Assembly: GCA_934675095.1 (NCBI GenBank) | Contig: CAKUPC010000007.1 | Location: 1-48,113 of the forward strand | DNA length: 48,113 bases | Direction: 5' to 3' | Origin: an uncultured Bacteroidales bacterium | GTDB lineage: Bacteria; Bacteroidota; Bacteroidia; Bacteroidales; UBA932 | In this document: positions 14,506 to 34,399 of the stretch, piece by piece | How the letters are laid out: every line of letters starts with the position of its first letter | Numbering within the stretch: position 1 is the stretch's first letter | The notes under the pieces: model-generated | Told to the model about the DNA's origin: nothing | Seen by the model: only the letters and a program-made list of their open reading frames with translations | Databases searched by the model: none | Program-made: the position numbers and the translations under genes

Positions 14506-15504
14506 TTATTCCTCAGCGTCAAAGACAGTAATCGTCATCTGCTGAATCTTCTGCGATGCTCCGGCGTAGTTGGAATTTGTACCGACAAAGGTGACGGTGT
14601 AGGTGCCCGGCTCGTCCCAGGTGTATTCGAAGCTGTGGAGATAGTTCTGGAGGTTCTTGATGGCAACGCCCTTGTCGTTCTCCACCTTGTTCAGCGGCAT
14701 CGGCCGTGAGATTGCCCATCCGTCGATGGCGAAGGGGAGCTTGTTCGCGGCTATGCCCTGAAAGAACAGGTCGGCTGTGGCCGGCTTGTTGAGGATAATG
14801 ATTCCCTTGTCATTCTCTCCGACACCGGTAGGATAAGTAATGCTGTTCTTCACATAAGGGTCGGCGTATTCTTCATATTCGTCGTTCATCATGACGGTCA
14901 CAAAATCCAATCCGCTGAAATCAATCGTCGAAGGATTCATCCCTTCGAGGTCGAGTGTGACGGCTCCGTTTATCCAATATGTCCTCTGAACTTTCGTGAA
15001 ATCCGTCGGACACCAGTGGAAAGCTATGCTGAAATTTTCCATATATTCATCGACGGCATATTCCTGCGATGTCCACTTGGTGCTTGCACCCTCCTGATAG
15101 TCAAGGCGTTCCCATCCGGCCATATTGTCCTCGACCATAGACTTTATGAGCGCCTTGTCTGCTGCTGCGTCATTCCCGGAAAGCCCCTCGAACTCCTTGG
15201 AAATCCAGACTTCCATGGCTCCGGCCAGTCCATATCGTGCCTGATAGTCAATGTTCAGAGCCGCCTTTTTCACGGCGCTTCCGTCAACCTCGTATCTGTC
15301 ACGGAACTCGTATTTATGCCCTGTCTCACCGCTGTAGAACACGATGTTATCGACGTCGCCGCGGAAGTTGAAACGGACAGGCCTGCCTGCCTCGTAGCTG
15401 TTTGACTTGTCGAGGGAGACGGTATAGTTGATGTCATAGACAACTTCCTGCCGGCAAGAGACGGCGAGGACAAAGATGATAAAAAGTAAATATATTCTTT
15501 TCAT
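14506..15504 (-). CDS. DUF5017 surface glycan-binding lipoprotein
   Basis: 332 residues from ATG 15504 (a TTG two codons upstream is open but unlikely). The lipoprotein signal ends at LAVSC. The N-terminal domain carries the DUF5017 signature VRFNFRGDVDNIVFYSGETG, a PKD-like fold. The C-terminal part ends in a beta-sandwich strand set (GTYTVTFVGTNSNYAGAS). DUF5017 proteins are encoded after SusC/SusD in many Bacteroidales PULs and are taken to be cell-surface glycan-binding proteins, the SusE/F position. It begins 11 bases after the SusD stop, so it belongs to the same operon. Expected role: capture of the PUL's glycan at the surface and supply to SusCD. Confidence 0.85.
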   Translation of the reverse strand: MKRIYLLFIIFVLAVSCRQEVVYDINYTVSLDKSNSYEAGRPVRFNFRGDVDNIVFYSGETGHKYEFRDRYEVDGSAVKKAALNIDYQARYGLAGAMEVWISKEFEGLSGNDAAADKALIKSMVEDNMAGWERLDYQEGASTKWTSQEYAVDEYMENFSIAFHWCPTDFTKVQRTYWINGAVTLDLEGMNPSTIDFSGLDFVTVMMNDEYEEYADPYVKNSITYPTGVGENDKGIIILNKPATADLFFQGIAANKLPFAIDGWAISRPMPLNKVENDKGVAIKNLQNYLHSFEYTWDEPGTYTVTFVGTNSNYAGASQKIQQMTITVFDAEE

Positions 15505-15515
15505 ACTCAATCAAA

Positions 15516-17222
15516 TTAGTTTGCCCACAATGAATTCTGCGAGAGCTGCTTGTTCACTCCAAGCTCGATTGACGGAATCGGAAGAAGCACATTCCTTGCC
15601 GTGACGCTCCCGCCGATGCTTGCCGCGCGTGACGCATTGACATTCTCCGCCCATCTCGGATCCGCGGTCCATGTCGCGTATGCGTTCATTTCCTGAACAT
15701 AGATGCCCCAGCGGATGAGGTCGAAGCGGCGCAGGGACTCAAAGCACAGTTCGCGTCCCCTCTCGTTGCGGACGAGTTCGCGGAAAGTCTCCTTGTCGTA
15801 GTCAGAGAATGCGCGCGTCGCGATGCCTGCCCTGCTGCGGACCTTTTCCACGCAGTCGTAGGCCTCCTGTGTCGGACCGTCAAGCTCGTTGGATGCCTCG
15901 GCATACATCAGGAGCACGTCGGAGTAGCGCAGGATGGGGAAGTTGATGGTCGTGTAGAGGTTCTTTGCCGTCTTCTGCCCCTCGTAGATGACCTCGCGCC
16001 TGAATTTGCCGCAGTTGCGGAGCGCCGGAGCGGCAGTCGGGTCGTCTGTAGTGGAAACGTTTTTATAGACATACGGGGTCTTGTCGATTCCGGAAACGCA
16101 CTGGCCGCTCGTTTCTCCGTAAGGCGGCTGGTTGGCGTTGCCGGCATAGTTGTACGGAGGCAGGTTCCAGTCCTGACGTTTGTCCGTTATCGTTGCAAGG
16201 GCATTCTCGTCATCGGTCCTGTCCGTCTGCCAGTAAAGGTCCCAGAGCTTGAGCGAGCCGTCGTACTGGCCGTAGGAGTAGTTGCAGTTGAACTCCCCGA
16301 ATCTGGTCGAGCTGCTGTTCCCGCTCTGGAGTCCGAGCAGGTCGCCGATTCGTCCGTTGGACCAGCTCTCCGCACTGGAACGGTCGCCGAGAAATTCCGC
16401 TTCCCACATCGACTCGTGCCACTCCGTGTCGTATTTGTCCTCAATCATGTTGATGAATACCTGCGAATAGTCCGGGTTCAGCCCGTGCTTCCCGCTGTCA
16501 ATCACGTCCTTGGCAAAGCCGCGGGCCTTCGTCAAGAACTCCGTCTTGTCACCGCCATCCACACTGGAGCCGGCCAGAAAGAGATATACGCGGGCTAGTA
16601 TGCCCTGAACCGTGGTCTTTGTGACGCGCGAAGGCTGGGCGGTCACCTCCTCGTCGGCAAGTTCGAGGCAGGCCTCCATTTCGGATGCCGCCCAAGTCAG
16701 AACTTCAAACTGAGGGGTTGCCCCGCACATTACCTCGTCGGGAGTCTTCACCGCCTCCCTGCGCAGAGGAACGTCGCCCCATGACTGCGCGAGGAGGAAA
16801 TGGTAGTATGCCCTGAGGAAGCGTGCCTCGTTGAAGTACTTGCCGTCCTTGTCGAACTCGGTCTTCACGACGGCCTCCATGAACTCGTTCGCGTTGCGTA
16901 TTCCCTGATAGATGGCCGTCCAGATGTCATAGACCTGAACGGTCGCCGCGTCGTGGCGGTTGTACTGCAGGAAGTTGCTCTGCACGTCCCTGTTGAAATA
17001 GCAGAGGTCGTCTCCGTTCGCGTACATTATGCTGTAGTAGTTGCCGTAAAACTGCTCCTTGTTCATCACGCCATAGACTCCGGCGAGCCCGTATTTCACC
17101 TCGTCCTCCGTGTTGTAGAACGTCTCGGAGCATATCACCTGCGGAGTCACGTCGAAGAAGCTGCATGAAGCGAGACTCGTGGCGGCCGCAAGGCAAATCG
17201 TATATTTCAATATATCTTTCAT
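15516..17222 (-). CDS. SusD/RagB-family nutrient-binding lipoprotein
   Basis: 568 residues, usual for SusD. Lipoprotein signal ending at Cys20 (SLASC), so it is outer-membrane anchored and faces out. Family marks: FFDVTPQ after the signal, NARFLRAYYHFLLAQSWGDV in the TPR-like helical core, NFPILRYSDVLLMYAEA, and the C-terminal RNERGRELCFESLRRFDLIR. SusD forms the lid of the TonB-dependent SusC pore and closes on captured oligosaccharide. It lies 12 bases after SusC and 11 bases before the DUF5017 gene, a tight operon. The glycan is inferred from the two PL8 lyases beside it: chondroitin-type glycosaminoglycan. Confidence 0.96.
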   Translation of the reverse strand: MKDILKYTICLAAATSLASCSFFDVTPQVICSETFYNTEDEVKYGLAGVYGVMNKEQFYGNYYSIMYANGDDLCYFNRDVQSNFLQYNRHDAATVQVYDIWTAIYQGIRNANEFMEAVVKTEFDKDGKYFNEARFLRAYYHFLLAQSWGDVPLRREAVKTPDEVMCGATPQFEVLTWAASEMEACLELADEEVTAQPSRVTKTTVQGILARVYLFLAGSSVDGGDKTEFLTKARGFAKDVIDSGKHGLNPDYSQVFINMIEDKYDTEWHESMWEAEFLGDRSSAESWSNGRIGDLLGLQSGNSSSTRFGEFNCNYSYGQYDGSLKLWDLYWQTDRTDDENALATITDKRQDWNLPPYNYAGNANQPPYGETSGQCVSGIDKTPYVYKNVSTTDDPTAAPALRNCGKFRREVIYEGQKTAKNLYTTINFPILRYSDVLLMYAEASNELDGPTQEAYDCVEKVRSRAGIATRAFSDYDKETFRELVRNERGRELCFESLRRFDLIRWGIYVQEMNAYATWTADPRWAENVNASRAASIGGSVTARNVLLPIPSIELGVNKQLSQNSLWAN

Positions 17223-17234
17223 ACTCTCAGTGAA

Positions 17235-20200
17235 TTAGAATGTGAATGAAACGCCTCCGGTGACACCGAATGCCCTCGGGTAGGCCGACCAGTCAAATCC
17301 CGGAGTGAGCACGGAGTTCCTTGTGGAAACCTCGGGGTCAGGTCCGGAATATTTTGTGAGCGTGAACACGTTGTCGGCGGAAATATACACCCTCATCGTG
17401 TCGAAGCGCATCTTTCTGAGAGCCTTGCGCGGGAGGGTATATCCCACGGAAACATTTCTCAGACGGAGGAAAGAACCGTCCTCGACGACGCGGGAAGAAT
17501 AGAGATAGATTCCGTTCGCCTGAACCCTCGGGATGTCGCTCTCCGGATTGTCCGGCGTCCATCTGTCCTTGTAGGTGGCCCACTGGTTCGTGTTGGTGAC
17601 GTTTCCGTTCTCGAAGTAGAGCCTGTTGGCGTTCAGGATGTTGTTGCCGTAGCTCCACGAGAAGAATAGATTGACGTCGAAGCCGTGGAAATTGAAGGTC
17701 GTGCCGAATCCTCCTGTGCTGAGCGGCTGTCCGCAGCCGATGACGGTGCGGTCGTTGTCGTCGATGACTCCGTCGCCGTTGATGTCACGGTATTTCGGGT
17801 CTCCCGGTTTCACCGCGCTTTTTCCTACTGTCGAAAGATAAGGCACTCCGTCCTTGAGGGTCGTGCCGGAATTGAAATCGTCGTACTTGTAGGTGCCCTC
17901 ATATATGAATCCGTACATAAGGCCGGATGGCTTGCCGACTTGAGTTATGTACGGGTACTGGCCGTTGAATCTCTGGTCCCATGACACGCCGCTCATCAGC
18001 GAGTACTGGTCGTTGGTAAGCGCCGTGACCTTGTTCCTGTTCATTGCTATGTTGAAGTTTACGCTCCACGCGAAGTTCCTTTTCTGAATCAGCGTCGCGT
18101 CAAGCGTCAGCTCGACTCCCCGGTTGCGCATGGAGCCGATGTTCATCATAGCGGAGGTGTAGCCGGAAGACGCAGGAATCGTGGCCTGGAGAAGCAGGTC
18201 GCGGGTGTTCTTGAGATACCAGTCGGCGGTGAGCTTGAGCCTGCTCTCGAAGAACGAGAGGTCGAGTCCGACGTTCCACTGCTCCGTGCTCTCCCATTTC
18301 AATTTGTCGTTCGTCATGTTTGACGGGAAGTAGCCCGAGACAATCTGGCCGTTGAACACATAGTCATACGAGTTGGCGTCGCCCGGAAGCGTAGAAATCT
18401 GGGAGTAGTAGTCATACGGTGTCGTGGTGCGGTTGTTTCCCGTGAGACCCCATGAGGCACGCAGCTTTCCGTTCGAGAGCCACGAGGCGTCCTTGAGCCA
18501 GTCCTCGCGGTTGAAGTTCCATGACAGTCCGGCGGAAGGGAAGTAGCCCCATCTGTTGCCGGAAGGGAACTTGGACGAGCCGTCGGCGCGGAAGGACGCC
18601 GTGAGGTAGTACTTGTACCTGTAGTTGTAGTTGAGCCTGAAGAGGCCCGACATCATTGTCCAGTCATACTGCCACGGCTTCACGGTCTGGTAGTTTCCCG
18701 TGTGCAGACCGTTCAGCCCGAGGGATTCCGTGGTCATCTGCGTGGCCGCCGTGCCCTTGTAGTCGAATGTCTCGCCCTGCATCGTGAAGCCTCCGAGAAG
18801 CTGGAGATGATGCCTGCGGCGGATGTTCTTCGTCCATGTGAGGGTGTTCTCGTTGAGCCATGTCACCTTGCTGTTCCAGTATATCGCCCCGTTTATTCCC
18901 TTTCCTGAAGGCGAGCCGGCGTAGCCCGTGTAGGTCTGCGTGCCGTTGAATTCCTCGCGGCGGCGCTTGTTCATCGTGTATCCTCCGGTAATCTTGAGCT
19001 TCAGCCCGTCGATGATTTCCCAAGTGAGTCCGGCGTTGGCGTTGAGGTAATCGACTATTGTCTTGCGATGCTCGTTCTGCGCGGTCTTCACCGGATTGAA
19101 GCGGTAGTCGTTCGCTCCGGTCACTTCCGAGTCAACGAGGTCGTCATAGAGGTCGTCGCTGTTCCCGGAGCGCAGCGGCTTCACCGGACGGTAGCCCCAG
19201 ACCGAGTACATGAGCCATCCCGTTGCCGAGGAGGCCGCCTGCGCGTCGGTAGGAGTGACTCCGTTGGTCATCGAGCGGGAGTAGTTCGCAAGCGCGTCCA
19301 GAGTCACCTTCTTGCCGAACTTCTGCTGGAAGTTGATTTTTCCCTGATAGCGCTGGAAATTGGAGCGGATGATGATTCCGTCCTGGTCGAGCGCGGAAAG
19401 GCTTATGTTGTAGCGGTTGCCGGCTTCCTTGCTGCCGCCGGAGACTGAAACGGAGTAGTTCTGGGTGAGGGAAGTGCGGAAAAGCCTGTCCTGCCAGTCG
19501 TTGTAGGGCACTCCGATGTAGTCTTCAGGGGTGTAGGCCGTGATTCCGGCGAGTTCGTCAGCATCCGACGGCTTCAGGTAGGCATTTGTGTTTCCCGTGA
19601 TGTCATAAATCTCCGTCTGGAGCTTCACGAACTCATATCCGTCCATCAGGCTGACCCTGTTGGCAATCTGATTCATTGTCCATGTCGCGTTGAAGTTGAC
19701 CTTAGGCTTGCCTTCCTGTCCCTGCTTTGTGGTGATGACGATTACTCCGTTGGCTCCGCGCGCTCCGTAAATCGCCGTCGCTGATGCGTCCTTGAGGATG
19801 TCGATGGACTCGATGTCGGCGGAGTTGAGCGAGGTCGCCATGGAACTTTCCGTAGGGAAACCGTCTATGACATAGAGAGGTGCGCTGCTCTGGGTGAGGG
19901 AGTTGTTTCCCCGGATGGTGATGTTCGCCTCCGAGCCGAGCGCTCCGTCCGATGTCGTGACCACCACTCCGGCAATCTTTCCCGTGAGAGCCTGGTCGAA
20001 GTTCGTCACCGGGGTCTTCATCAGCTCTCCCATATCGACCTTGCTCACAGAGCCTGTGAGGTCTCTTCTCGCCACAGTTCCGTAGCCCACGCTGACGACT
20101 TCCGCCGCGTCAAGCGAAAGCTGCTCTTCCTTCAGCGTTACGTCAATGCTCGTCCTTCCTCCGACGCTCTGTCTGCTTTCGGCGAATCCGAGGCAGGAGA

Positions 20201-20423
20201 AAATCAGCGTCGCGTCGGGGGATGAGACGGTAAGGACATATCTTCCGTCGATGTCGGTCACCGTTCCGTTCGATGTCCTGCCGTCCTCATACACCGTCAC
20301 CGCAACAAGCGGACTTCCGGTGCCGTCGATAACTCGGCCGCTTACCTTGGTGTTCTGTGCCGACAGTTCAAGTGCCGTACAGAGCAGCAGGATGGCCGTG
20401 AAAATTTTGGTCAAAGTCTGCAT
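17235..20423 (-). CDS. SusC/RagA-family TonB-linked outer-membrane transporter
   Basis: 1062 residues. Signal peptide (about 1-22), then a carboxypeptidase-regulatory-like domain (VSGRVIDGTGSPLVAVTVYE), the SusC plug with VVSVGYGTVARRDLTGSVSK, GANGVIVITTKQG, and a 22-strand barrel ending in the aromatic residue Phe (VSFTF). It imports oligosaccharides across the outer membrane with energy from TonB-ExbBD. Start ATG 20423 lies 50 bases after the PL8 lyase stop, and SusD follows after 12 bases, so lyase, SusC, SusD and the DUF5017 protein form one operon. No separate promoter is visible in the 50-base gap. Typical length; no disruption. Confidence 0.97.
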   Translation of the reverse strand: MQTLTKIFTAILLLCTALELSAQNTKVSGRVIDGTGSPLVAVTVYEDGRTSNGTVTDIDGRYVLTVSSPDATLIFSCLGFAESRQSVGGRTSIDVTLKEEQLSLDAAEVVSVGYGTVARRDLTGSVSKVDMGELMKTPVTNFDQALTGKIAGVVVTTSDGALGSEANITIRGNNSLTQSSAPLYVIDGFPTESSMATSLNSADIESIDILKDASATAIYGARGANGVIVITTKQGQEGKPKVNFNATWTMNQIANRVSLMDGYEFVKLQTEIYDITGNTNAYLKPSDADELAGITAYTPEDYIGVPYNDWQDRLFRTSLTQNYSVSVSGGSKEAGNRYNISLSALDQDGIIIRSNFQRYQGKINFQQKFGKKVTLDALANYSRSMTNGVTPTDAQAASSATGWLMYSVWGYRPVKPLRSGNSDDLYDDLVDSEVTGANDYRFNPVKTAQNEHRKTIVDYLNANAGLTWEIIDGLKLKITGGYTMNKRRREEFNGTQTYTGYAGSPSGKGINGAIYWNSKVTWLNENTLTWTKNIRRRHHLQLLGGFTMQGETFDYKGTAATQMTTESLGLNGLHTGNYQTVKPWQYDWTMMSGLFRLNYNYRYKYYLTASFRADGSSKFPSGNRWGYFPSAGLSWNFNREDWLKDASWLSNGKLRASWGLTGNNRTTTPYDYYSQISTLPGDANSYDYVFNGQIVSGYFPSNMTNDKLKWESTEQWNVGLDLSFFESRLKLTADWYLKNTRDLLLQATIPASSGYTSAMMNIGSMRNRGVELTLDATLIQKRNFAWSVNFNIAMNRNKVTALTNDQYSLMSGVSWDQRFNGQYPYITQVGKPSGLMYGFIYEGTYKYDDFNSGTTLKDGVPYLSTVGKSAVKPGDPKYRDINGDGVIDDNDRTVIGCGQPLSTGGFGTTFNFHGFDVNLFFSWSYGNNILNANRLYFENGNVTNTNQWATYKDRWTPDNPESDIPRVQANGIYLYSSRVVEDGSFLRLRNVSVGYTLPRKALRKMRFDTMRVYISADNVFTLTKYSGPDPEVSTRNSVLTPGFDWSAYPRAFGVTGGVSFTF

Positions 20424-20473: not shown

Positions 20474-23413
20474 CTATCGTTTCTTCAATATAAATTCTAC
20501 CGGCTGGCCGTTTATGCAGCTCACTGAAAGTCTTGTCCTTCCGTCCTGTGCATCGGCGGTGACGGCCTCATTGTCTTCACTCAGCGCATATTTGCCGTTG
20601 AGGACAACTTCCTTCACCAAAGGCTGGCTCGGCTGCGAGGTCGTGTAGCCCTTTTTCGTAATTCCGAGATCCGGCGTGCAGACGCTCATCACTATGCTTC
20701 CGTCCTCTTTCGCCCGCTCCATCACGATTGTCTCCGGCTGAATCTCGGCTGCAAGGGTATTGTCGGAACTGTAGCCCCCGTAGCTGATGTAGGCGGTGAT
20801 TCCCGTGACAGCGTCCTTCACGACGTGCGCCTCGTTGTCCGCCTGCAGCACGCTGTATGGCAGCTTTTTCGCATATTTCCCGACCTCTTTTCCGCTCGGT
20901 CTCACAAGCATCATATACTCGTAGGAAGCCCCTTTCGGCGCGGTTCCATGGTTGATGTACGCAGTCACGAAATCTCCCTCTCCGGTCTTTTTCTTCGTGT
21001 CGGACGGCGATGACTGATGCTTTTTCTCGACGACGAGTCCTCGTCCGTCCCTTATTATATAGCTGTTCCCGTTGACGTCGGTCAGAACGACTGGCGTATT
21101 CTCCGTGTGTCTGTAGGAATATGGGAATGTCCCGGAATATTCGTCGTTTATATCGACTTCCGCGTCCTTGTCTTCGAGCCTGAGCTGATAGAGCGTGGTC
21201 TCCGTCGGATACTGCGAATTGTTGGAAATACCTGTTCCAATGTGTATTATCCTGTTGTCGAAGCAGAAGACGCTCTTCGTGGCGGTCGCTCCGGCGCAGA
21301 AATTCTTCCTGTCCCTCTCTACGTAAGTGAATGCAAGACAGCCGTTTGCCCCTTCGAGAGACGAGACCCCCGGGAAGCGTGAATCATTTCTTTCCATCAG
21401 CGTCCCTTTCAGCGGGTTCTCAAGAATGTCGAACGGCAGATGCACGGAGGTGACTCCCGGGTAGCGGTTCCAGTCCCAGCCTTCCTGCGCATATCCGCTT
21501 GCCTTCGCCCCGTCGGGGAAGATGACTTGTGCCGAGCCGTAGCTGAGGTAGCGTCCGTAGCGGTTGTCGGCGGCGTAAATCTCCGAACTCCAGACATCTG
21601 AGTTGAATCCCTTGAGGGTGAGCATCCAGCCGCTCCTGCGGTGTACTCCGAATGCGCCGTAATTATAGACGCGGAAGCCGTCCGGAGCCGCATTCGCCTT
21701 TATGCCGGCTTTCTTGAACGCGGAGAGCGCCTTCTTGTCCTTGCCTCCGAGGGCGATGTATGCTCCGGCGAGGTCGGGGTCAGCGGCGAGTCCAGCGCCT
21801 GTAAGGTCTCCGAGCAGTGCGAGCTGCGCGTATGTCTCAACATCCGCGTCCGGAATCCTGCCGTTGAAAGGATGCCTTCCGCAGACTCCTATTCCCCAGT
21901 CGCGCCCGTTGGTGTAGTCATACATGGCCATCAGCGCTTTCTTGAAGTCTTTCCTTGCGGCCTCGTCAATCTCGAAATCCGTCCCGGAGGTGAAGCGTAT
22001 GAACTCTCCGAGCGCCGCGAACGCTCCGACGGAATAGCCCGGGTAGTGCCCGCCGTGGTGGAATGAAGTCCCGTCCATCTTGAGACCTCCCACGGTGCCG
22101 TCCGTGAAGCCGAGTGAGCCGGAGGTCCATGCGCCTAATGCCTTCATATATGCGTATTTTGCATCATCTGACGGAGCCAGCATCGCCGAAACAACGCGGC
22201 AGTTGTGCAGCGTGTGCCATGCGTCGAGCACTCCGTCGCGCGTCTGCTCATAAGGCATACGGACTTCCTGAAGACCGGACCAGTAGCTGAGCGTCTTGAG
22301 ATAGTCCTGAAGCTTTCCCGCCTTTTCGAGCGGTTCTCGCAGAATCCATATTCCTTTATAAAGGTTACGCACCTGATAGCCGTAGTGGTGGTTCGTTCCC
22401 TGACCGCTTCCGTATGCAAATCCCTGGTCTATGGCGTGGTCCATCGCGTCGATGACCTTGCCGACATTGGCGGTGCTGCCCGTGTAGAGATAGTCGAGCG
22501 CGAACCAATAGACGATGTCCTGTATGAAGCGTATCCTCATCTCGCCGGCGGCATTGTTGAATTCGTCGTCGCTCAGCAGCGGCGCTCCGGTTATGCTCCC
22601 GTCCGGCAGACGGCGTATTCCGTATTTGTCGATAAGTCCTTGTGCCCTCGCGAGAAGCGTGTTCTGCGTGTATTCCGCCCCGGGATTGTCATTTTCTGCC
22701 CATTCGTCCATTCTCTTCTCGACGGCCCGGAGCATTTCCTTCTCCTCCGCAGTCACTGGCCTGATTTCCAATTCCTTGTACTGCTCCCATTCCCACAGCC
22801 GGCACCACTGCCAGAGGTCGCGTTCAAGATTGTAATTGTTCTCGGGAATCTGCATATCCGGGGTAATCTGCGCGTGAAGCTTCTTCGTTGGGAAACTTAC
22901 CCTGTCTATATATATGGTACCATGCGGAGCCGCGGATCTTATCGTCATCTTCGCCGCGAGCGTGTTTCTTTCCGAAGGCTTCTTGTCCCCATAGTGTCCG
23001 TCAGGAGTGAGCATATCAATATATTTCATCCATATAGCCCTCCATCCCGTATGGTTCATATTGAAATTGAAATGGCATATTTCATTTCCCAGCCAGTCGT
23101 AAAATGTGAACAGAAGCGGTTCATTCATGGATTCCGTGTTATAAACCCACATCATCAGCCCCGCGCCGTTCACTTTCATCGAAGCCTCAAGCTCCGCGTG
23201 GTTGGCGAACACGAGCTCCGACGTCCCGTCCCAAGAATACTTCACGGACTGTTTCCCGTCCTTGAACTTGTCGGACGAGACACAAGCCTGCCCGTTGCCG
23301 CCAGCGGAAATGAACGACGGCATTCCTCCCTCGAAATTATGTTGGGAGACAATTGCCGCAAAGGCGTTGTGCGAAAGCACTATAAGGGATAAAAGAAATG
23401 CCAGTTTCTTCAT
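20474..23413 (-). CDS. Polysaccharide lyase family 8 (chondroitinase ABC-like)
   Basis: 979 residues, the length of chondroitin ABC lyases. Cleaved signal peptide (about 1-20), so periplasmic or exported. An N-terminal beta-sandwich/CBM-like domain (to about 175) is followed by the alpha/alpha toroid with NHHYGYQVRNLY, then a beta-sandwich C-terminal domain. By spacing with Proteus chondroitinase ABC I (His501, Tyr508, Arg560, Glu653), the equivalents are His453, Tyr460, Arg513 and Glu611. These enzymes cut uronic acid-GalNAc links in chondroitin or dermatan sulfate, often also hyaluronan, by beta-elimination, leaving unsaturated disaccharides. First gene of the minus arm, 50 bases before SusC. 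Substrate choice between chondroitin, dermatan and hyaluronan cannot be read from sequence. Confidence 0.92.
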   Translation of the reverse strand: MKKLAFLLSLIVLSHNAFAAIVSQHNFEGGMPSFISAGGNGQACVSSDKFKDGKQSVKYSWDGTSELVFANHAELEASMKVNGAGLMMWVYNTESMNEPLLFTFYDWLGNEICHFNFNMNHTGWRAIWMKYIDMLTPDGHYGDKKPSERNTLAAKMTIRSAAPHGTIYIDRVSFPTKKLHAQITPDMQIPENNYNLERDLWQWCRLWEWEQYKELEIRPVTAEEKEMLRAVEKRMDEWAENDNPGAEYTQNTLLARAQGLIDKYGIRRLPDGSITGAPLLSDDEFNNAAGEMRIRFIQDIVYWFALDYLYTGSTANVGKVIDAMDHAIDQGFAYGSGQGTNHHYGYQVRNLYKGIWILREPLEKAGKLQDYLKTLSYWSGLQEVRMPYEQTRDGVLDAWHTLHNCRVVSAMLAPSDDAKYAYMKALGAWTSGSLGFTDGTVGGLKMDGTSFHHGGHYPGYSVGAFAALGEFIRFTSGTDFEIDEAARKDFKKALMAMYDYTNGRDWGIGVCGRHPFNGRIPDADVETYAQLALLGDLTGAGLAADPDLAGAYIALGGKDKKALSAFKKAGIKANAAPDGFRVYNYGAFGVHRRSGWMLTLKGFNSDVWSSEIYAADNRYGRYLSYGSAQVIFPDGAKASGYAQEGWDWNRYPGVTSVHLPFDILENPLKGTLMERNDSRFPGVSSLEGANGCLAFTYVERDRKNFCAGATATKSVFCFDNRIIHIGTGISNNSQYPTETTLYQLRLEDKDAEVDINDEYSGTFPYSYRHTENTPVVLTDVNGNSYIIRDGRGLVVEKKHQSSPSDTKKKTGEGDFVTAYINHGTAPKGASYEYMMLVRPSGKEVGKYAKKLPYSVLQADNEAHVVKDAVTGITAYISYGGYSSDNTLAAEIQPETIVMERAKEDGSIVMSVCTPDLGITKKGYTTSQPSQPLVKEVVLNGKYALSEDNEAVTADAQDGRTRLSVSCINGQPVEFILKKR

Positions 23414-23432
23414 AATTTACATCTTTGGAATG

Positions 23433-23440
23433 CAAATGTA
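23433..23440 (-). promoter_or_regulatory. -7 box for the PUL minus arm
   Basis: TACATTTG on the minus strand, a full TAnnTTTG match, 20 bases before the PL8 start. No convincing -33 TTTG, which fits a promoter that needs an activator. It lies only 13 bases from the opposing box at 23454. Confidence 0.5.
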
Positions 23441-23453
23441 ATAAATCTTTTCT

Positions 23454-23461
23454 TAACTTTG
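23454..23461 (+). promoter_or_regulatory. -7 box for the PUL plus arm
   Basis: TAACTTTG on the plus strand, a full TAnnTTTG match, about 60 bases before the GTG at 23522. No -33 TTTG at the usual spacing (nearest TTTG is 26 bases away). The two arms thus share a 108-base divergent control region. Confidence 0.5.
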
Positions 23462-26500: not shown

Positions 26501-26650
26501 GTGCGTCTCAAGGTCAGGGGGCTCTGGGAAATAGCTGACGCGGGAACTTCCGTCGTTGAGGACTCCCGGGAGGACAACTGCACGACATTGACTTTCCGCA
26601 CGGGTGAGGCCGGAACCGAGGAAATCGTGCTCAAAAGAGTCTTGCTATGA
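23522..26650 (+). CDS. Second, divergent PL8 lyase
   Basis: 1042 residues. No ATG serves as start: after an in-frame TAA at 23504 the only usual start codon ahead of the signal peptide is GTG at 23522, giving MVFKAFTR and a clean signal (about 1-26). Layout matches the first PL8: N-terminal beta-sandwich with a WRGAW motif, alpha/alpha toroid with GTLHHLGYSMRNFY, then beta domains. Catalytic candidates are His467, Tyr474, Arg527 and Glu626, the same spacing as in chondroitinase ABC. The two lyases differ strongly elsewhere, suggesting different action (endo and exo) or substrate. A tandem-repeat insertion lies near residue 850. The stop overlaps the start of the sulfatase gene (ATGA), indicating translational coupling. 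In B. thetaiotaomicron a PL8 (BT3350) also neighbours a sulfatase gene. Confidence 0.88.
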   Translation: MVFKAFTRTYILLAAGLLLSVGAAAQSVDYGIDHGVLSFETGVSPVVPGRHSSVSVSGLHYKLGTHSLEWNWKRGGADLSIPGRIPYMKENPDPKETSVSTFVFWVYADKPLEGSLRFSFMKGGRECCRFDYGLGFTGWRGAWVAFDRDMTGTPEEGMDEVVITAPAGVRRGHLWFDGIITSAFEDVRYHTPDWQAPFVNQDTNIHWLVLNKSWNLRLDIPETALSESDIRDMATVTERFVSLVMPDKVPSLDELRKMYEGYEIRENPDGTVTGKPIWFKRYGETFINLGIRDASAAFSREGQLLKDYNNNLLNVAAAWNRTYDLAEKQELARMYVMMTRHLLDQGFAAGSAQGTLHHLGYSMRNFYIAPVLMREVLREAGLSEQVQRAMEWFSGVGEVKTAPKEPGMDIDAFNTSLMGRTASLLMLEDSTHKWAYLKALSRWIDNGFKYVDGTRPCFKTDGSIYHHRKAYPAYAVGGLDGAVNSVWMLRGTALAVSEESHEILRHALLEMRFWCNLRSFPLAMSGRHPDGKGELFPRHYAMLAESGTPDGRSQIDTALASAFLRLTPDSRPREKAWHRSFAAAGIAPEPTPQGSRSYGYNCSLSHRCGEALVTFAGHSRYLWAAEIYNGANHYGRYLTHGSMQILCGGTPVIDSFGSGFQVDGWDWRHIPGTTAAEIPMERMKANVLNVDEHSGYEEMLLSDEWFAGGVSHRGLYGAFAMKLHEHDKYNGSLRARKSFFAFGDRIVALGSDLENALPGSELHTTLLQNTITEDTPTMVGGTPVNSRDFNAELNSPLTVLRDRFSNAYLVRDALVRVSRGLQHSLHEETDAPTEGVFEKAYIFHGGIVGNGAVAGDDAIVGSDTVAGDVYMNDGYEYMVGLQPSDERLEEWKSSRPYTVIRRDRNAHVVRDHESGVTGCAVFEGGAVDSLIVESSPAMIMYSGDGMELTLSVCNPDLALYEGEADEVYDENGKRIERSVYGRKWIDNHCLPTVVRLKVRGLWEIADAGTSVVEDSREDNCTTLTFRTGEAGTEEIVLKRVLL
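26063..26126 (+). repeat. 18-bp tandem repeat inside the second PL8 gene
   Basis: About 3.5 imperfect copies of 18 bases (26063-26080, 26081-26098, 26099-26116, 26117-26126), each like GYCGGARATGRYRCCRTY. It codes for Gly/Ala/Val/Asp-rich residues VGNGAVAGDDAIVGSDTVAG. The frame is kept, so the repeat lengthens a loop in the C-terminal domain. Confidence 0.8.
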
Positions 26651-28201: not shown

Positions 28202-30706
28202 ATGAAACTTGTTGATAAACTGTGTGTTGCGATTTTTACGGTCGCGGCTGTCGTCTCCTGCGACACTTCGGCTCTTGAGGAACGGATCGACTCCCTTGAG
28301 TCGAGGATTCATTCTCTCGAAAAATCCGTGGGGCAGGTCAATGACAATGCGGTGGCTCTGCGTCAGCTGATGAAGGACAATGTCTGGATTGAGGAATATG
28401 AGACCGTTCTTGACGGGGAAAAGACTGTGGGATATGTACTTACACTGAGTGACGGAACGACGGTGAAAGTCGTCTATGGCATCGTGGCTGACGCTGTTGT
28501 CCCTATGATTGGCATTGATTCCGAAGGGAAATGGATTATGTCGATGGAAGGAGGCAAGACCTTCTCACGCATTGAGGGGGCTACGGGTGCCGCTGCGGAA
28601 AATGGTGTCACGCCGCAGGTTCGGGTCGATTCCGCCGGATTCTGGCAGATAAGCCTTGACGGAGGCAAGACCTGGAAGCATATACTCGGAGCGGACGGCA
28701 ATCCGCAGAGCGCGGAGAGCGCACCGGCTGAGTCGGGAGGTTCTGCAAGCATATTCCGGTCAGTGACATACGATGCTGCCTCGCAGCGTATGACCTTTGT
28801 TCTTGCCGCTGACGGACAGACCATTGTGCTGAATGTCATTCAGGATTTCCGCTTTACCGTCGAAGGCTACACTCCGAAAACGGCGATATTTTTCGGGAAC
28901 AGCGCAAGCTTCAATGTTACGGCATCGGATGTCGCCGAGGTGATGCTTGAGGTTCCGGACGGCTGGAGGGCGACATTTGACGGGACGAAGCTTACCGTGG
29001 CTGCTCCTGAGGCAGGAACGCCGGGAGACTATTCCGTCAGCGTTGTCGCGGTGTCGAACGGCGGGCTTATGAAGCGTCTGACTTTGGAATTTAAACTGAC
29101 AGACATGATTGCGGGGCTTCTTGACTATTCATACGCCGGCTACAACCACGGGGAGACCGCTCCTGCCGAGGCTTCCGCATGGGGCTACAAGGTCTATAAC
29201 GTCTGTGACTACGGCGCAGTGCCGAACGACGGCAAATCGGACAGGGACGCCTTCCTGAAATGCCTTGAGGCTGCGCTCGGAGTGTCATATACGGTAAATG
29301 ACAACAATGTGATATGCTTTGGCAACAAGGCGGCTGCCAACGCGATTGTCTATTTCCCCGAAGGCGAGTTCATTCTCCATACTTCGGACGATGACGTGGA
29401 ACTTTCCGGCAAGAGTCCGAGCAGGACCATTCAGATACGCTCCGGCAACATCATACTTCGCGGAGCGGGACGGGACAAGACCGTGCTTGTCATGCAGGAT
29501 CCGAACAAGCCGTCCGACGAAAGCGTATTGTACAGTTCGCCCGCTATGATTGAGTTCAAGCACAATTCTGGACTTGCACAGGTCACGACCGTGACTTCCA
29601 ATGCTGCGAAAGGCTCGTTTTCCGTTGATGTCGCTTCGGCGGCCGGACTTTCTGAAGGACAGTGGGTCTGCCTTTCGGTGGTTAATAACGACCCCGCATT
29701 TGTCGCGGCTGAACTCAAGGCCGGAAATCCGACGGATGCCGAGCTTGCGACCATGACAAATATAAAGACGAGCGGCGTGCAGGTCTATGACTATCATCAG
29801 ATTCGGAGCATAAGCGGCAATAAGCTGACTTTCGTGGAACCCCTCATGCACGAGGTTGATCTCCAATACACCGCGAACACAAATCCCTCAGGCTACAACT
29901 GGGGCATATACAAGTTCCCTCATTATGAGAACGTCGGCGTTGAGGACCTTACCTTCCGAGGCAACGCCAAGGACCATTTCGAGCATCACGGCAGCTGGCA
30001 GGACGACGGAGCCTACAAACCGCTCAATTTTGTGCGTCTTACGAACTCGTGGCTGCGCAGGGTAGGGTTTGAAAGCGTCAGCGAGGCCTGCTCCATCGTC
30101 ACCAGCGCCAATGTCTCCGCATACGACATAACTTTCAGCGGCCGAAGAGGACACGCGGCTGTCCGTTCGCAGGGTTCCTCACGAGTGTTCATCGGCGCGA
30201 CGACGGACAGAACCTCGGGCTATCTCATAGACAGCCCTGAGACATATTCCGAGCAGGCGGGGCAGTACCACGCCGTAGGAGTGTCGAAGCAGAGCATGGG
30301 CGCGGTTCTCTGGAGAAACACCTGGGGAAACGACAGTTGTTTCGAGTCTCATGCAACGCAGCCTCGCGCGACCCTGATTGACTGCTGCACGGGAGGATGG
30401 ATGCAGTTCCGGCAGGGAGGTGACGCGGCTCAGGTTCCGAACCATCTTGCCGACCTCGTGGTGTGGAATTTCGAGTCCACGACTCCGCAGGCGACTGCAT
30501 TCATCTTCTGGGATCACGGCAGCCGTTGGTGGAAGTTCATTCCTCCGGTAATCGTCGGCTTCCACGGAGAGCCCACAACATTTGAATCCTCGCAGGTGCA
30601 GGCCGAACTGAGCAACGGAACGCCGTTTTTCATCGAATCTCTCTACGAGCACCAGCTCAAGGCCCGCCTCGGCGCAGTCCCGGCTTGGCTTCAGAGTCTT
30701 AAGTGA
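28202..30706 (+). CDS. PL29-type polysaccharide lyase candidate (DUF4988 stalk plus beta-helix)
   Basis: 834 residues. Lipoprotein signal ending at Cys20 (AVVSC), so surface or periplasm-facing. Residues 24-58 form a short coiled coil (ALEERIDSLESRIHSLEKSV), followed by two related beta units (VPMIGIDSEGKWIMSMEGGK and TPQVRVDSAGFWQISLDGGK); together this is the DUF4988 region known as the PL29 N-terminal domain. From about residue 330 a right-handed beta-helix begins with the pectate-lyase-superfamily entry CDYGAVPNDGKSDRDAFLKC. The founding PL29 enzyme, BT3328 of B. thetaiotaomicron, is a surface chondroitin-sulfate lyase. By context this is the likely surface endolyase of the PUL. Catalytic residues cannot be named. 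It starts 4 bases after the sulfatase stop. Confidence 0.75.
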   Translation: MKLVDKLCVAIFTVAAVVSCDTSALEERIDSLESRIHSLEKSVGQVNDNAVALRQLMKDNVWIEEYETVLDGEKTVGYVLTLSDGTTVKVVYGIVADAVVPMIGIDSEGKWIMSMEGGKTFSRIEGATGAAAENGVTPQVRVDSAGFWQISLDGGKTWKHILGADGNPQSAESAPAESGGSASIFRSVTYDAASQRMTFVLAADGQTIVLNVIQDFRFTVEGYTPKTAIFFGNSASFNVTASDVAEVMLEVPDGWRATFDGTKLTVAAPEAGTPGDYSVSVVAVSNGGLMKRLTLEFKLTDMIAGLLDYSYAGYNHGETAPAEASAWGYKVYNVCDYGAVPNDGKSDRDAFLKCLEAALGVSYTVNDNNVICFGNKAAANAIVYFPEGEFILHTSDDDVELSGKSPSRTIQIRSGNIILRGAGRDKTVLVMQDPNKPSDESVLYSSPAMIEFKHNSGLAQVTTVTSNAAKGSFSVDVASAAGLSEGQWVCLSVVNNDPAFVAAELKAGNPTDAELATMTNIKTSGVQVYDYHQIRSISGNKLTFVEPLMHEVDLQYTANTNPSGYNWGIYKFPHYENVGVEDLTFRGNAKDHFEHHGSWQDDGAYKPLNFVRLTNSWLRRVGFESVSEACSIVTSANVSAYDITFSGRRGHAAVRSQGSSRVFIGATTDRTSGYLIDSPETYSEQAGQYHAVGVSKQSMGAVLWRNTWGNDSCFESHATQPRATLIDCCTGGWMQFRQGGDAAQVPNHLADLVVWNFESTTPQATAFIFWDHGSRWWKFIPPVIVGFHGEPTTFESSQVQAELSNGTPFFIESLYEHQLKARLGAVPAWLQSLK

Positions 30707-30760: not shown

Positions 30761-32737
30761 ATGAAACGGATTTTTTCATACCTTTTACCGGTATTTGCCG
30801 CAGGCACTTTCGCCGCGTGCTCTCCCATCTCGACTATCGAAAACAGGGTGGACTCCCTTGAAAGCAGGGTCGTGGCTCTCGAAACGGCCGTAGGAAAGAT
30901 AAATGAGAGGGTGGATGCCCTCAAGGCGCTCGTCGAGGGCGGCACAATCAGCAGCGTCGAAGAGAAGGACGGAGCCTACACCATCACTCTCAGCGACGGA
31001 AAGGTCATCAAACTCAATCAGGGAAGCGTCGGCGTCGCTAATCCTCCGGTCGTGTCCATCGATGCGGACGGCTACTGGATGGTTGACTATGGAAAGGGAG
31101 CTGAATATATCCTTGTCGGCGGTCAGAAGGTCAAGGCTGTCGGGGCCGACGGCGTCACCCCGATGTTCGGCGTGGATGCAGGCGGCTACTGGACGGTAAG
31201 TTATGACGGAGGCAAGACTTACGAACAGGTCAAGGATGCCGACGGCGCTCCCGTCAAGGCAGTTCCGGACGGCGGCTCTTCGGAGGACAAGTGGTTCGAG
31301 AAAGTCTCTGTGGCGGACGGGAACCTTGAGGTTGTCATGAAGGGCGGAAAATCCTATAAGCTCCCGATTGTCTCGGATTTCTCCTGCGTCATAAAGGGCG
31401 CGGACGATGTCGTCACTTTCACCTACGGCGAGACAAAGACTTTCGACGTCGAGATGACCGGCGTGGCTTCCGTCATGGTGAGCGCACCTCAGAACTGGTC
31501 GGCAAAGCTTGAAAATGCCGTGCTCAGCGTGACCGCGCCGGCAGCCGTCACGAAGGCTCTTTCTGCGGACAGCGACGCCGACGTCTGCCTCCTTGTCATT
31601 TCCGAGAAAGGCTTCTCTTCAATAAGCAAGCTCCGCGTCAAGGTTTCCGATGAAACTCCTGTCGTGACCTATCCGGGTCTTTACGGCAAATACAGCAACG
31701 GCGAGGATGTCGTTATCGGCGGTGTTACTGTCAATAAGACTACCTATCCTACCGTTAATTACATCAGCTCCACAAGCGAGGACAAGACCCTCAAGAGCGG
31801 AGTGAACTTCGTAGATGCGGATGTTGTGGCGGAGTTCTCAGCCGCAGGTCTGACGCTTCCTTTCATCGTCGCCGGCAACACTGAAGGCAGCAGGACTGTG
31901 CTCAATGCCACGACTCAGGTCAATCTCGTGTCTTCCGAGACCATAAGCGACAATGTTGTAAGATTCCAGAACATTAAACTCAGCACCGAAAGCATAAGCG
32001 CAAATTATCTCATTGCCAACACGGCCGACAATGCAATCAACAGCATCGGCTTCAAGGACTGCGGGATTGAGCTTGTAGGAGACAAGAATCTCATGTATAT
32101 GGCTGCAGCAAGGCCGGTGAACGCCCTTGTTATGGAAGACTGCGACGTGAAGATGAACTCGACGAAAGCCACCAACAACTTCATCCTTCAGGTAAGCGGT
32201 GCTGTTTATACGATGGCGGAACTTACTTTCACGAACAATGTGTTCTGGTCAGACAGCGACAACGGTGTCAAGGCGTTCAGTCTCTATCTCGACAGAAAGG
32301 CCGCAGTCTCAAAACTTACCGTTACGCATAATACATTCGTCAATCTATATCCGCAGGCTTCCTACGCATATTGCCAGATAAACGACATGATTGCAGGCGA
32401 TTTGTCAAACAACCTCTTCTATTTCAAGGACTATGCGACGGCAACGGCAAATGCTAACGGTGTCGCTACATATACGGGTATTGTAAAGGAAGAGACGGCG
32501 GGAAATGTCGTTGAGGATGATTATGCCGCATTTAATAATAACTATTCCATTTATGGCGGTGATGCAATCCCTACTCAGAAGCTGAAGCTCGGTCAGAACG
32601 CAAAGACGACCAACATTGTCTTCAAGTTGCAGGCCGATGCTACAGAGGTTTTTGATTTCACCGACGACTCTGAGAACTTCAACATTGAGAAGGGCATCTT
32701 CAAGCCAAAGAAAGCGGAGTACGGCGCACAGAGATGA
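30761..32737 (+). CDS. DUF4988 (PL29 N-terminal-like) lipoprotein with a different beta-helix
   Basis: 658 residues. Lipoprotein signal ending at Cys20 (TFAAC). A coiled coil (about 24-60, IENRVDSLESRVVALETAVG) and two beta units (PPVVSIDADGYWMVDYGKGA and TPMFGVDAGGYWTVSYDGGK) parallel the N-terminus of the preceding protein. The C-terminal 350 residues are a different beta-helix, with rungs such as GFKDCGIEL, VMEDCDVKMN and LTFTNNVFWSDSD, resembling DUF4957/DUF5123-type regions of PUL lipoproteins. It could be a second lyase or a non-catalytic glycan-binding protein; I favour binding because no charged catalytic cluster stands out. It is the last gene of the plus arm, 54 bases after the PL29-like gene, and a hairpin follows the stop. 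Confidence 0.72.
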   Translation: MKRIFSYLLPVFAAGTFAACSPISTIENRVDSLESRVVALETAVGKINERVDALKALVEGGTISSVEEKDGAYTITLSDGKVIKLNQGSVGVANPPVVSIDADGYWMVDYGKGAEYILVGGQKVKAVGADGVTPMFGVDAGGYWTVSYDGGKTYEQVKDADGAPVKAVPDGGSSEDKWFEKVSVADGNLEVVMKGGKSYKLPIVSDFSCVIKGADDVVTFTYGETKTFDVEMTGVASVMVSAPQNWSAKLENAVLSVTAPAAVTKALSADSDADVCLLVISEKGFSSISKLRVKVSDETPVVTYPGLYGKYSNGEDVVIGGVTVNKTTYPTVNYISSTSEDKTLKSGVNFVDADVVAEFSAAGLTLPFIVAGNTEGSRTVLNATTQVNLVSSETISDNVVRFQNIKLSTESISANYLIANTADNAINSIGFKDCGIELVGDKNLMYMAAARPVNALVMEDCDVKMNSTKATNNFILQVSGAVYTMAELTFTNNVFWSDSDNGVKAFSLYLDRKAAVSKLTVTHNTFVNLYPQASYAYCQINDMIAGDLSNNLFYFKDYATATANANGVATYTGIVKEETAGNVVEDDYAAFNNNYSIYGGDAIPTQKLKLGQNAKTTNIVFKLQADATEVFDFTDDSENFNIEKGIFKPKKAEYGAQR

Positions 32738-32760
32738 CGCTCTATGTCATTGACTTACAA

Positions 32761-32797
32761 AGAAAGGTGGTTGAACGCAAAATTCAACCACCTTTCT
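32761..32797. terminator. Hairpin between converging PUL plus arm and second sulfatase
   Basis: AGAAAGGTGGTTGAA pairs perfectly with TTCAACCACCTTTCT (15 bp) around CGCAAAA. The T-run after it is short (TGTTTG), so efficiency is uncertain, but its place between two converging stops fits a shared terminator. Confidence 0.75.
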
Positions 32798-32818
32798 TGT
32801 TTGGGGCCTGGGTCACTG

Positions 32819-34399
32819 TTACTCCAAAGCATCAACCGCAATATCCTCGTTATACAGCCGGCCGCTCTGCCTCAGGAACTCCGCCTTCATCGCGGCCAGG
32901 CGCTCCGGGTCATTGACCGGTGTCGCCTGTCCCGGATCCGCGTCGAGATTCCACAGCGTATCCTCGCTGTTGTTGCCGAGTTCGATGCCGGTCGAGTTGT
33001 AGTTCGCCCCGCTGTAGGCAGGAATCATCACGTAGCTGCCATGGCGGTAGGCAAGCCTGCCCTGAGCTTCGATAATCTGGTCGGGACGGCCTCCTTTCAG
33101 TTCCCGTCCGAGCAGCACGTCAGGATAGGACTGGCTGTCAAGTCCGGAGACAACCTTGCCTCCCGTGATTTCACCGAGCGTCGCATAGAGGTCCATCTGG
33201 CAGTAGTAGGCATCGCTGACGGCAGGGGAGACATGGTCCTTCCAATAGACTATGAACGGGATGTGCGTGCCGGCGTCGTAGAGGCTGTATTTGCCTCCCC
33301 GCAGGCCGTTGTCCGGGTCGTGTCCTTTTTCGTGGGCAATCTCCTCCGCGCCGTCGTCATATCCGTCCTGAAGCACGGCCCCGTTGTCCGAGGTTATGAT
33401 AATCATCGTGTTTTCAAGCAGTCCAAGCGAACGAAGTTTCTCCACGACCTGCCCCACGCACCAGTCCGCCTCAATGACGGCGTCGCCCCTGCATCCGAGT
33501 CCGCTGGAACCGACGAAACGCGATGCCGGAACTCTCGGCACATGAGGCTCGTGCAGACCGTAGTAGAGGAAGAACGGCTCATCCTTGTGGCTGTCAATGA
33601 ATGAGTTGACCTTGGACAGGAAGTAGTCCGCCATCGTGTCGTCCTGCCACCTCGCGGAATGTCCTCCCTTCATGTAGCCGATGCGCGGAACTCCGTTCAC
33701 GATTGTGCCCTGATGACCGTGAAGCCATTTCATCGTCATCATCTCCGGATTTGTCAGGGCAGTCGGCTCCCCGTCGAAGTTCTTTTCGTAGTTCACCATA
33801 ATCGGGTCGGACGGGTCAAGCCCGAGCACCTTGCCGTTCTCGACATAGACGGTCGGAACTCGGTCAACCGTTGCCGGAATCAGGTTGGTGTAGTCGAAGC
33901 CCACGGTATTTCCCGAAGGCACGATTTCCTCGTTCCAGTCGAGTTTGCCGTAGCCCATCCCAAGATGCCATTTCCCGATGGCCCCGGTCGCATATCCCTC
34001 CTCCTGCATCATCTTAGGAAGCGTCGGCATCGACGGGTCAATCAGCAGAGGCGCGTCTCCGGGCAGGATTTTGGCATCCGGATTTCTCCACGGGTACATC
34101 CCCGTAAAGAGCGCGAAACGGCTTGGCGTGGATGTCGAGGAGGTGGCGTAGCAGTTGCGGAAACGCAGTCCCGCGTCGGCAAGCGAGTCGATGTGCGGAG
34201 TGCTGATGGTAGTTGAACCATAGCAGCTTACGTCTCCAAGCCCGAGGTCGTCGGCAACGATGAGCACGACATTAGGACGCTGCACTTTCTGCTGCTGTTT
34301 CTGTGCGCATCCGGAGGCTCCTGCCGCTATCGGAGCCAAGGCCAGCAGCGGCGATGCCTTTCCGAGTGCCGTCAAATTCAATGGGTATTTTGTTTTCAT
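32819..34399 (-). CDS. S1-family sulfatase, serine type (probable GalNAc-6-sulfatase-like)
   Basis: 526 residues. A long signal ends at the lipobox-like GASGC31. The formylglycine motif is Ser90-Thr-Pro-Ser-Arg94 (TSSTSTPSRFALFTG), the serine type needing an anSME maturase. Metal ligands are visible as ADDLGLGD (Asp50, Asp51) and ITSDNGAVL; GKWHLG is the conserved lysine/histidine stretch. The overall form (YGSTTISTPHIDSLA, FFLYYGLHEPHVPR) recalls BT3333-type GalNAc-6-O-sulfatases, but this is memory-based. It is transcribed toward the plus arm of the PUL from its own promoter at 34443-34474. A run of 13 C lies just upstream of that promoter. Expected to remove sulfate from lyase products. 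Confidence 0.88.
   Translation of the reverse strand: MKTKYPLNLTALGKASPLLALAPIAAGASGCAQKQQQKVQRPNVVLIVADDLGLGDVSCYGSTTISTPHIDSLADAGLRFRNCYATSSTSTPSRFALFTGMYPWRNPDAKILPGDAPLLIDPSMPTLPKMMQEEGYATGAIGKWHLGMGYGKLDWNEEIVPSGNTVGFDYTNLIPATVDRVPTVYVENGKVLGLDPSDPIMVNYEKNFDGEPTALTNPEMMTMKWLHGHQGTIVNGVPRIGYMKGGHSARWQDDTMADYFLSKVNSFIDSHKDEPFFLYYGLHEPHVPRVPASRFVGSSGLGCRGDAVIEADWCVGQVVEKLRSLGLLENTMIIITSDNGAVLQDGYDDGAEEIAHEKGHDPDNGLRGGKYSLYDAGTHIPFIVYWKDHVSPAVSDAYYCQMDLYATLGEITGGKVVSGLDSQSYPDVLLGRELKGGRPDQIIEAQGRLAYRHGSYVMIPAYSGANYNSTGIELGNNSEDTLWNLDADPGQATPVNDPERLAAMKAEFLRQSGRLYNEDIAVDALE

Follow-up and report, generated by a model that had tools for sequence, protein, structure and literature searches.

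The genome of an uncultured Bacteroidales bacterium (assembly GCA_934675095.1) contains, in the contig stretch of 48,113 bases analyzed here (CAKUPC010000007.1, positions 1 to 48,113; referred to as the window), a polysaccharide utilization locus (PUL; 14506-34399) that resembles those for the degradation of glycosaminoglycans (GAGs). Within the locus, neither a GH88 enzyme nor a hybrid two-component system (HTCS) sensor was encountered, which raises the question of how the unsaturated disaccharides formed from the polymer are cleaved and how the locus is switched on. The answer proposed below is that this is probably the chondroitin/dermatan/hyaluronan PUL of a Cryptobacteroides-like gut bacterium, with its GH88 enzyme encoded elsewhere in the genome and with one arm, read from the plus strand, under the control of a KdgR-like repressor of the LacI family. 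The gene set described in the original prediction was retrieved, namely a pair of PL8 lyases, one PL29-like lyase, two S1 sulfatases of the serine type, and one SusCD pair; the locus also encodes two likely glycan-binding lipoproteins.

These genes form two divergent arms that begin with the PL8 lyases, PL8a (20474-23413, minus strand) and PL8b (23522-26650, plus strand), the starts of which are separated by exactly 108 bases (23414-23521), so that the shared control region reported before was confirmed to the base. The minus arm encodes, in this order, PL8a, SusC, SusD, and a DUF5017 lipoprotein, and the plus arm PL8b, an S1 sulfatase, the PL29-like lyase, and a DUF4988 lipoprotein; the second S1 sulfatase gene (32819-34399, minus strand) is convergent with the plus arm, on its right. 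The -7 box of Bacteroidota promoters has the consensus TAnnTTTG. Matches to it predict one such box for the minus arm, TACATTTG (23433-23440, minus strand), and one for the plus arm, TAACTTTG (23454-23461, plus strand). The palindrome TCCGTTGGCGTGCACGGA (23470-23487), a putative LacI/KdgR-like operator, begins 16 bases after the start of the plus-arm box. It is the sole perfect TCCGTNNNCGNNNACGGA site in the window; the expected number is 0.04 per window, and 4 out of 100 shuffled sequences contained one. The palindrome lies just after the predicted start site of the plus arm, a position that would fit a repressor. A copy with one mismatch, TCCGTGAGCGTGTCCGGA, occurs at 23678-23695, inside the start of PL8b, and may be a secondary operator or the result of chance.

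Kin of the locus were collected by a scan of genome contigs, which gave 126 relatives of PL8b and 80 loci that were kept, and from a sample of 250 genomes of the genus to which genome G001 belongs, of which 38 matched PL8a to some degree and 27 strongly (E-value of 2.7e-249 or better). Loci L001-L024 stem from Bacteroidales metagenome-assembled genomes (MAGs), three of which are titled Candidatus Cryptobacteroides, and from Alistipes montrealensis (L023). Among 23 PUL control regions scored (L004, L005, L006, L009, L018, and L021 being left out), the palindrome was perfect in three, those of the window, G249, and G001, and carried one mismatch in L003, two in L007, and three in L008, L013, and L022. 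The distance of 16 bases between the -7 box and the palindrome is identical in the window, G249, and G001. Another scan found two sites with two mismatches in L021, a four-mismatch site in L006, and nothing better than three mismatches in L005. Loci L025-L080 (1,059,159 bases) contained one perfect site (L062:3807). A first operator consensus, CCGTNANCGGTNAC, was dropped together with a 12-base form as too loose, because its matches in G001, G007, G008, and G249 (L134, L133, L141, and L144) lay inside one conserved coding gene.

The genes next to the palindrome in kin genomes point to uronate use. Eight chosen kin genomes harbored 24 TCCGTNNNCGNNNACGGA sites, compared with six for the reversed control pattern. 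Four of these 24 sites were located in open reading frames (ORFs) and 20 were intergenic, next to a LacI gene with or without kdgK (6), kduI (5), the PUL (2), uxaC (1), an MFS transporter gene (1), a SusC gene (1), or other genes (4). G001 possesses three perfect sites, at the PUL, before kduI, and between kdgK and lacI, and G249 two, at the PUL and before kduI. In G009, sites precede kduI and a SusCD operon with a neighbor that has a strong PF07470 (GH105-like) domain. KduI, UxaC (glucuronate isomerase), and tagaturonate reductase each score above the NCBIfam cut-off of their family; the KdgK-like protein, a PfkB kinase, stays below all cut-offs shown. An orthologous group of LacI proteins (61-86% identity) is present in G001, G002, G007, G008, and G009, and in all five the palindrome precedes the regulator's own gene, the G008 copy having one mismatch. 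In the 250-genome sample, at least 141 genomes had a TCCGTNNNCGNNNACGGA site; 30 of these sites were inspected, 12 of which were intergenic, namely between uxaC and uxaB (5), at LacI genes (4; one with kdgK and two with a GH28-type gene), at a SusC gene (1), at a pyruvate:ferredoxin oxidoreductase gene (1), and at a contig end (1). The gene families were checked for L181, L188, L200, and L179 and assigned by eye for the others. Most LacI operators are palindromes of even length with CG at their center (PMC4052901), and the Bacteroides regulators of uronate use KdgR, UxaR, and UxuR belong to the LacI family (PMC4052901, PMC3878776). Similarly, the element in the window is a central-CG palindrome located at a predicted promoter. 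As the sites precede uronate and LacI genes and the central-CG palindrome fits LacI operators, an operator of a KdgR-like LacI regulator is the best reading of the palindrome, one for which the comparison of sites argues with moderate strength.

Several observations weigh against this reading. The other 18 of the 30 inspected sites were found inside ORFs, one of them (L180) at the very start of its ORF; these are read as chance or coding conservation. Many of these genomes also contain sites for the reversed pattern, up to three each, so that the case for an operator rests on the contexts of the sites and not on the number of genomes. The palindrome shows four or more mismatches in 15 of the 23 PUL control regions; these include G120 and G200, which lack the site although their similarity to the window is about that of G249. 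Moreover, the window sequence itself contributed to the initial consensus. Four perfect sites (L210, L229, L232, and L233) adjoin genes without a clear link to uronates; since sites also occur beside such genes, the palindrome regulon is broader than uronate use. Further, the kduI site lies upstream of its -7 box, so that control other than repression is conceivable. Finally, both the KdgR-like regulator and the GH88 enzyme would be known from kin only, beyond the 48,113 bases of the window, and the nearest LacI protein in the small G249 assembly is just 47-50% identical to the regulator group. Separately, the palindrome occurs beside pyruvate:ferredoxin oxidoreductase-type genes in L179 and L229 (family checked for L179 only), and its regulon may reach central metabolism.

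Alternatively, the palindrome could form a hairpin or attenuator in the leader of the plus-arm transcript, with control exerted by an unlinked HTCS as in Bacteroides thetaiotaomicron. A terminator scan does report it, as a stem-loop followed by a T-rich tail, but the scan total was 21 as against a shuffle mean of 18.3. Before uronate and LacI genes, the spacing between palindrome and -7 box differs, the palindrome even lying upstream of the box, which fits DNA binding better than RNA folding. Regarding the sensor, the B. thetaiotaomicron PUL has been assigned to an HTCS (PMC3878776), and matches to the HTCS-type Y_Y_Y domain were found elsewhere in all nine kin genomes considered, so that such a protein could act in trans, which speaks against LacI-type control too. 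A Pfam scan of 28 window proteins (out of 82 ORFs of at least 100 amino acids) detected no HTCS, nor was there any Y_Y_Y match on the PUL contigs of the nine kin, several of which are short, those of G001, G005, G009, and G120 measuring 67-121 kb. The sulfatase maturase (anSME) exceeded its cut-off in eight of the nine genomes, always on contigs other than that of the PUL; it was not found in the ninth, G120. Since the PUL contigs of kin lack both sensor and maturase while their genomes mostly hold them elsewhere, this absence looks normal for the group. The original prediction was right that both functions are missing from the locus; nothing unusual attaches to the maturase, and the control missing with the HTCS is probably supplied by the LacI-type operator. 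Taken together, the hairpin with an unlinked HTCS is considered unlikely, and LacI-type control of the plus arm is retained as the preferred explanation.

The second part of the question concerns GH88. Among L001-L024, 22 of the 24 loci showed the divergent PL8 pair and the gene order of the window, the exceptions being L009, which begins too late, and L021, which is arranged otherwise. The PL8 genes of these 22 loci are spaced by about 1.4-1.5 kb, and in all eight loci read this stretch encodes a GH88-like lipoprotein; one such protein, P0009, was identified as GH88 by its matches in the PDB (best match 3wiw, and unsaturated glucuronyl hydrolases). Of the 27 strong PL8a loci, 20 had the GH88 gene next to PL8a on the opposite strand; in the remaining seven, it was on the same strand (3), absent there (3), or cut off by a contig end (1). 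The three loci without an adjoining GH88 gene belong to the closest kin of the window in the sample, G249 (77% identity) and G120 and G200 (76% each), and all three genomes keep a GH88 gene elsewhere, the product of which is 74-86% identical to that of G001. In G249 it is apparently a lone gene, whereas in both G120 and G200 its neighbor is another PL8 gene. Because the three closest kin likewise lack GH88 between the PL8 genes and keep it elsewhere, its absence there is a shared rearrangement and no assembly fault. The palindrome and -7 box lead into GH88 in G001 and into PL8b in both the window and G249, the pattern that an excision of GH88 from behind its promoter would leave. Upstream of the lone GH88 gene of G249 (L122), the best site has four mismatches, no better than in shuffles, and matches the looser CCGTNANCGGTNAC.

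A tblastn search with P0009 revealed neither a GH88 match nor a GH88 relic in the window. A true loss of GH88 from the lineage, with release of unsaturated disaccharides or a life by cross-feeding, would agree with this result and with the reported release of GAG products as public goods by Bacteroides (PMC9745678). It does not agree well with the three closest kin, each of which holds a copy of the gene outside the gap, and is regarded as even less probable than the hairpin. Most likely, as the original prediction had supposed for disaccharide cleavage, the window organism would encode its GH88 elsewhere in the genome. The strongest PF07470 matches in kin genomes are not the PUL GH88, which itself matches PF07470 only weakly (for example, 28 bits in G001:C4 and 43 bits in G120); they look like GH105. 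In the G120 genome, the GAG locus continues into genes for a KduD-like dehydrogenase, which among the models shown exceeds the cut-off only of that for gluconate 5-dehydrogenase, for a DUF4861-EIIC-GAT permease fusion, and for a KduI that passes its cut-off. Similarly, the G200 locus contains the DUF4861-EIIC-GAT fusion and a KduI-family protein (Pfam). This fusion (885-888 amino acids; L118:16307-18973 and L120:7881-10538), which adjoins the KduI-family gene at both loci, is a candidate transporter of uronates or unsaturated uronates.

The enzymes of the locus bear on its substrate. PL8a (PF09093, PF09092, and PF02278) has Proteus chondroitinase ABC I as its best PDB match (1hn0, 376 bits), followed by the Bacteroides lyase 2q1f (326 bits), which is the best match of PL8b (737 bits). 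In agreement with what had been noted earlier, both proteins combine PL8 domains with the catalytic His/Tyr/Arg/Glu residues (H453, Y460, R513, and E611 in PL8a; H467, Y474, R527, and E626 in PL8b); H453 and Y460 align with H501 and Y508 of the Proteus enzyme, as counted by hand in the alignment. The signal peptide of PL8a, read by eye, suggests a periplasmic location. A PL8 protein of B. faecis encoded near a PL29 homologue is nearly identical to 2q1f (2258 bits) and, by its position, may be the counterpart of BT3324, which is described as exo-acting (PMC6994673). Since each PL8 protein of the window is about 26-31% identical to the main relatives of the other and 34-77% to its own, sequence comparison identifies PL8a and PL8b as two old paralogues. 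A third, more distant PL8 type (22-25%) occurs in L029, L032, and L039 (Paludibacter and other Bacteroidia MAGs), where three PL8 genes are consecutive, the product of one being about 23% identical to PL8a. In B. salyersiae (L043:16576-21735, minus strand), a protein of 1719 amino acids contains a PL8a-like part (24% identity). The lyase following the first sulfatase in the plus arm (28202-30706, plus strand) has a lipobox-like N terminus and matches the BT3328 equivalog model NF058554 over residues 7-834 with 934 bits, below the cut-off of 1100; although the match covers nearly the full length, the PL29-type lyase of the original prediction is therefore called PL29-like only and not ranked as an equivalog.

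Both sulfatases carry serine at the modified position, as claimed before, in the motifs SSPYR (first) and STPSR (second); their subfamily names rest on the nearest solved structures. The plus-arm sulfatase (26647-28197, plus strand; PF00884) is S1_27-like, its nearest characterised relative being the endo-4-O-sulfatase 6s21 (644 bits), its best PDB match. The second, S1_15-like sulfatase matches 7ozc (687 bits) ahead of 6s20 (495 bits), the entry title of which is N-acetylgalactosamine-6-O-sulfatase. Structure 7OZC is BT3109 (PMC10154620), an enzyme acting on 6S-Gal (PMC10154612). Accounts of the S1_15 enzymes of chondroitin PULs mention a conserved tryptophan that contacts the N-acetyl group, without giving its residue number (PMC10154612). 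Two tryptophan columns that are conserved in all six other S1_15 homologues are occupied by Tyr456 and Ser469 in the window sulfatase and are also replaced in its G120 homologue; they may include this N-acetyl-contacting residue. By the bit scores, the second sulfatase appears nearer to the 6S-galactose enzyme BT3109 than to the chondroitin enzyme and is not clearly a GAG enzyme, so that the earlier claim of a GAG enzyme set is supported for the lyases and the first sulfatase and is uncertain for the second. It was not found in the examined stretches of L001-L024; in one close kin, G120, it is part of the locus, as a homologue of 79% identity follows the SusCD arm there.

The remaining proteins of the locus concern import and binding. 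SusC (17235-20423, minus strand) exceeds the TIGR04056 cut-off of 368 with 908 bits, and SusD (15516-17222, minus strand) contains PF07980 and PF14322. The DUF5017 lipoprotein (14506-15510, minus strand; PF16409, 66.7 bits; lipobox-like N terminus), encoded directly after SusD in kin loci too, is likely a surface glycan-binding protein (SGBPa). Residues 2-296 of the DUF4988 lipoprotein (30761-32737, plus strand) match the BT3328 family model, as does the N-terminal region of the PL29-like protein; BT3328 and BT3329 of B. thetaiotaomicron have about 300 N-terminal residues in common (PMC6994673), and the DUF4988 lipoprotein is likely a BT3329-like surface glycan-binding protein (SGBPb). A plus-strand ORF of 286 amino acids (32744-33604), which overlaps the second sulfatase gene and lacks Pfam and NCBIfam matches, was rejected as spurious. 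PL8 being a broad family, with weak matches of PL8a and PL8b to xanthan and mannuronan lyases, another uronic-acid polymer such as xanthan or an alginate-like one could be the target, but the domains shared with ABC lyases (Lyase_N and Lyase_catalyt), best PDB matches to ABC-type lyases by hundreds of bits, and an S1_27-like endo-4-O-sulfatase and a BT3328-like lyase in the same arm make this highly improbable. The resemblance of PL8b to 2q1f, of PL8a to the Proteus ABC lyase, and of the first sulfatase to 6s21 supports the compact chondroitin-type PUL that had been proposed.

Outside the locus, an ORF 2 kb from the minus arm (11112-12452, minus strand) encodes a protein that has hydrophobic stretches and ends in an HTH_18 domain of the AraC type; despite this proximity and domain, control of the PUL by this membrane regulator is very improbable, no homologue being present in the compared kin loci, which extend just 1.5 to about 17 kb past the PUL. 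A protein of 978 amino acids (6714-9650, minus strand) contains both a receiver domain and the AMP/ATP-binding domain of pyruvate phosphate dikinase (PPDK_N) and is not an HTCS. Two large tandem proteins (521-5348, plus strand) both contain DUF6562, the second one with an additional putative adhesive pectate-lyase-like domain. Two tRNA genes lie beyond the locus, at 34567 and 35908, and a GH20 protein of 889 amino acids (43262-45931, minus strand) has an extra N-terminal match to Cellulase/GH2_C TIM domains (181-331), thus apparently uniting two glycosidase barrels in one chain.

A working model may be derived from the annotated functions. At the cell surface, the PL29-like lyase and the two binding lipoproteins would cut and hold the GAG chain, and the SusCD pair would import the cut chain. 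In the periplasm, PL8a, as an ABC-type lyase, and PL8b, as an exolyase, would yield unsaturated disaccharides, 4-sulfates being stripped by the S1_27-like enzyme, and the GH88 encoded elsewhere would cleave these disaccharides. The uronate half would then pass to KduI, the KduD-like enzyme, and KdgK, the genes for which bear the same LacI-type operator in kin. The plus arm, encoding PL8b, the S1_27-like sulfatase, the PL29-like lyase, and SGBPb, would be repressed by the KdgR-like LacI protein until a breakdown product of uronates, the presumed ligand, relieves the repression, without switching by a neighboring HTCS. A more tentative extension is that a host-GAG PUL has moved from polymer sensing by an HTCS into a general uronate regulon, so that dietary pectin would derepress lyases and a sulfatase directed at host GAGs. 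In kin species, the same operator is present between LacI genes and genes of the polygalacturonase type, and also ahead of a SusCD operon that has a GH105-like gene nearby. If this extension holds, GH88 would have been free to leave the PUL, as its product and not its position carries the signal, and dietary pectin would be linked to how much host matrix glycan is consumed by a gut group with few cultured members. The model itself would imply that GAG PULs can be switched in a second way, via a shared downstream metabolite instead of a polymer-specific sensor, and genome scans that require GH88 and an HTCS within the PUL could misjudge such loci.

The enzymes and layout of the locus are ordinary and of a kind already known; the probable displacement of GH88 and the putative uronate-type operator are its new features. 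In the literature consulted (titles and abstract openings, subscription journals being largely uncovered), no GAG PUL under a uronate LacI regulator was mentioned. The closest known system is PUL_CS/DS/HA of B. thetaiotaomicron (BT3324-BT3350), which comprises two PL8 lyases, PL29, S1_27, and S1_15 along with one SusCD pair and two binding proteins at the cell surface, with an N-terminal region common to PL29 and one binding protein (PMC6994673). As these functions are present in a single PUL, of which a tightly packed relative has been reported (PMC6994673), the contrast with scattered B. thetaiotaomicron genes drawn in the original prediction was overstated. SusCD, two PL8 lyases, S1_27, and PL29, the last below the equivalog cut-off, likewise occur in one locus in the window. 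In contrast, the window PUL contains neither GH88 nor an HTCS, its S1_15 enzyme is nearer to BT3109, and its two divergent arms start from one region of 108 bp with a LacI-type operator, whereas the chondroitin sulfate and hyaluronan genes of B. thetaiotaomicron are assigned to the HTCS BT3334 (PMC3878776). Among the GAG PULs of kin MAGs (L001-L024 and L081-L107), 22 of the 24 loci L001-L024 possess the same divergent PL8 pair, but the GH88 gene usual beside PL8a is missing there in the window. The KdgR, UxaR, and UxuR regulons of Bacteroides likewise represent LacI-type uronate control by means of even palindromes with a central CG. ManR and AraR of B. thetaiotaomicron are monosaccharide regulators over SusCD operons in reconstructed regulons (PMC3878776), responding to mannose and arabinose and not to uronates or GAGs. 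Finally, streptococcal RegR (LacI/GalR family) controls a hyaluronidase (PMC13113925) and thus places a GAG lyase under a LacI-family protein, though in Streptococcus and without a PUL; the two forms of control are likely of independent origin.

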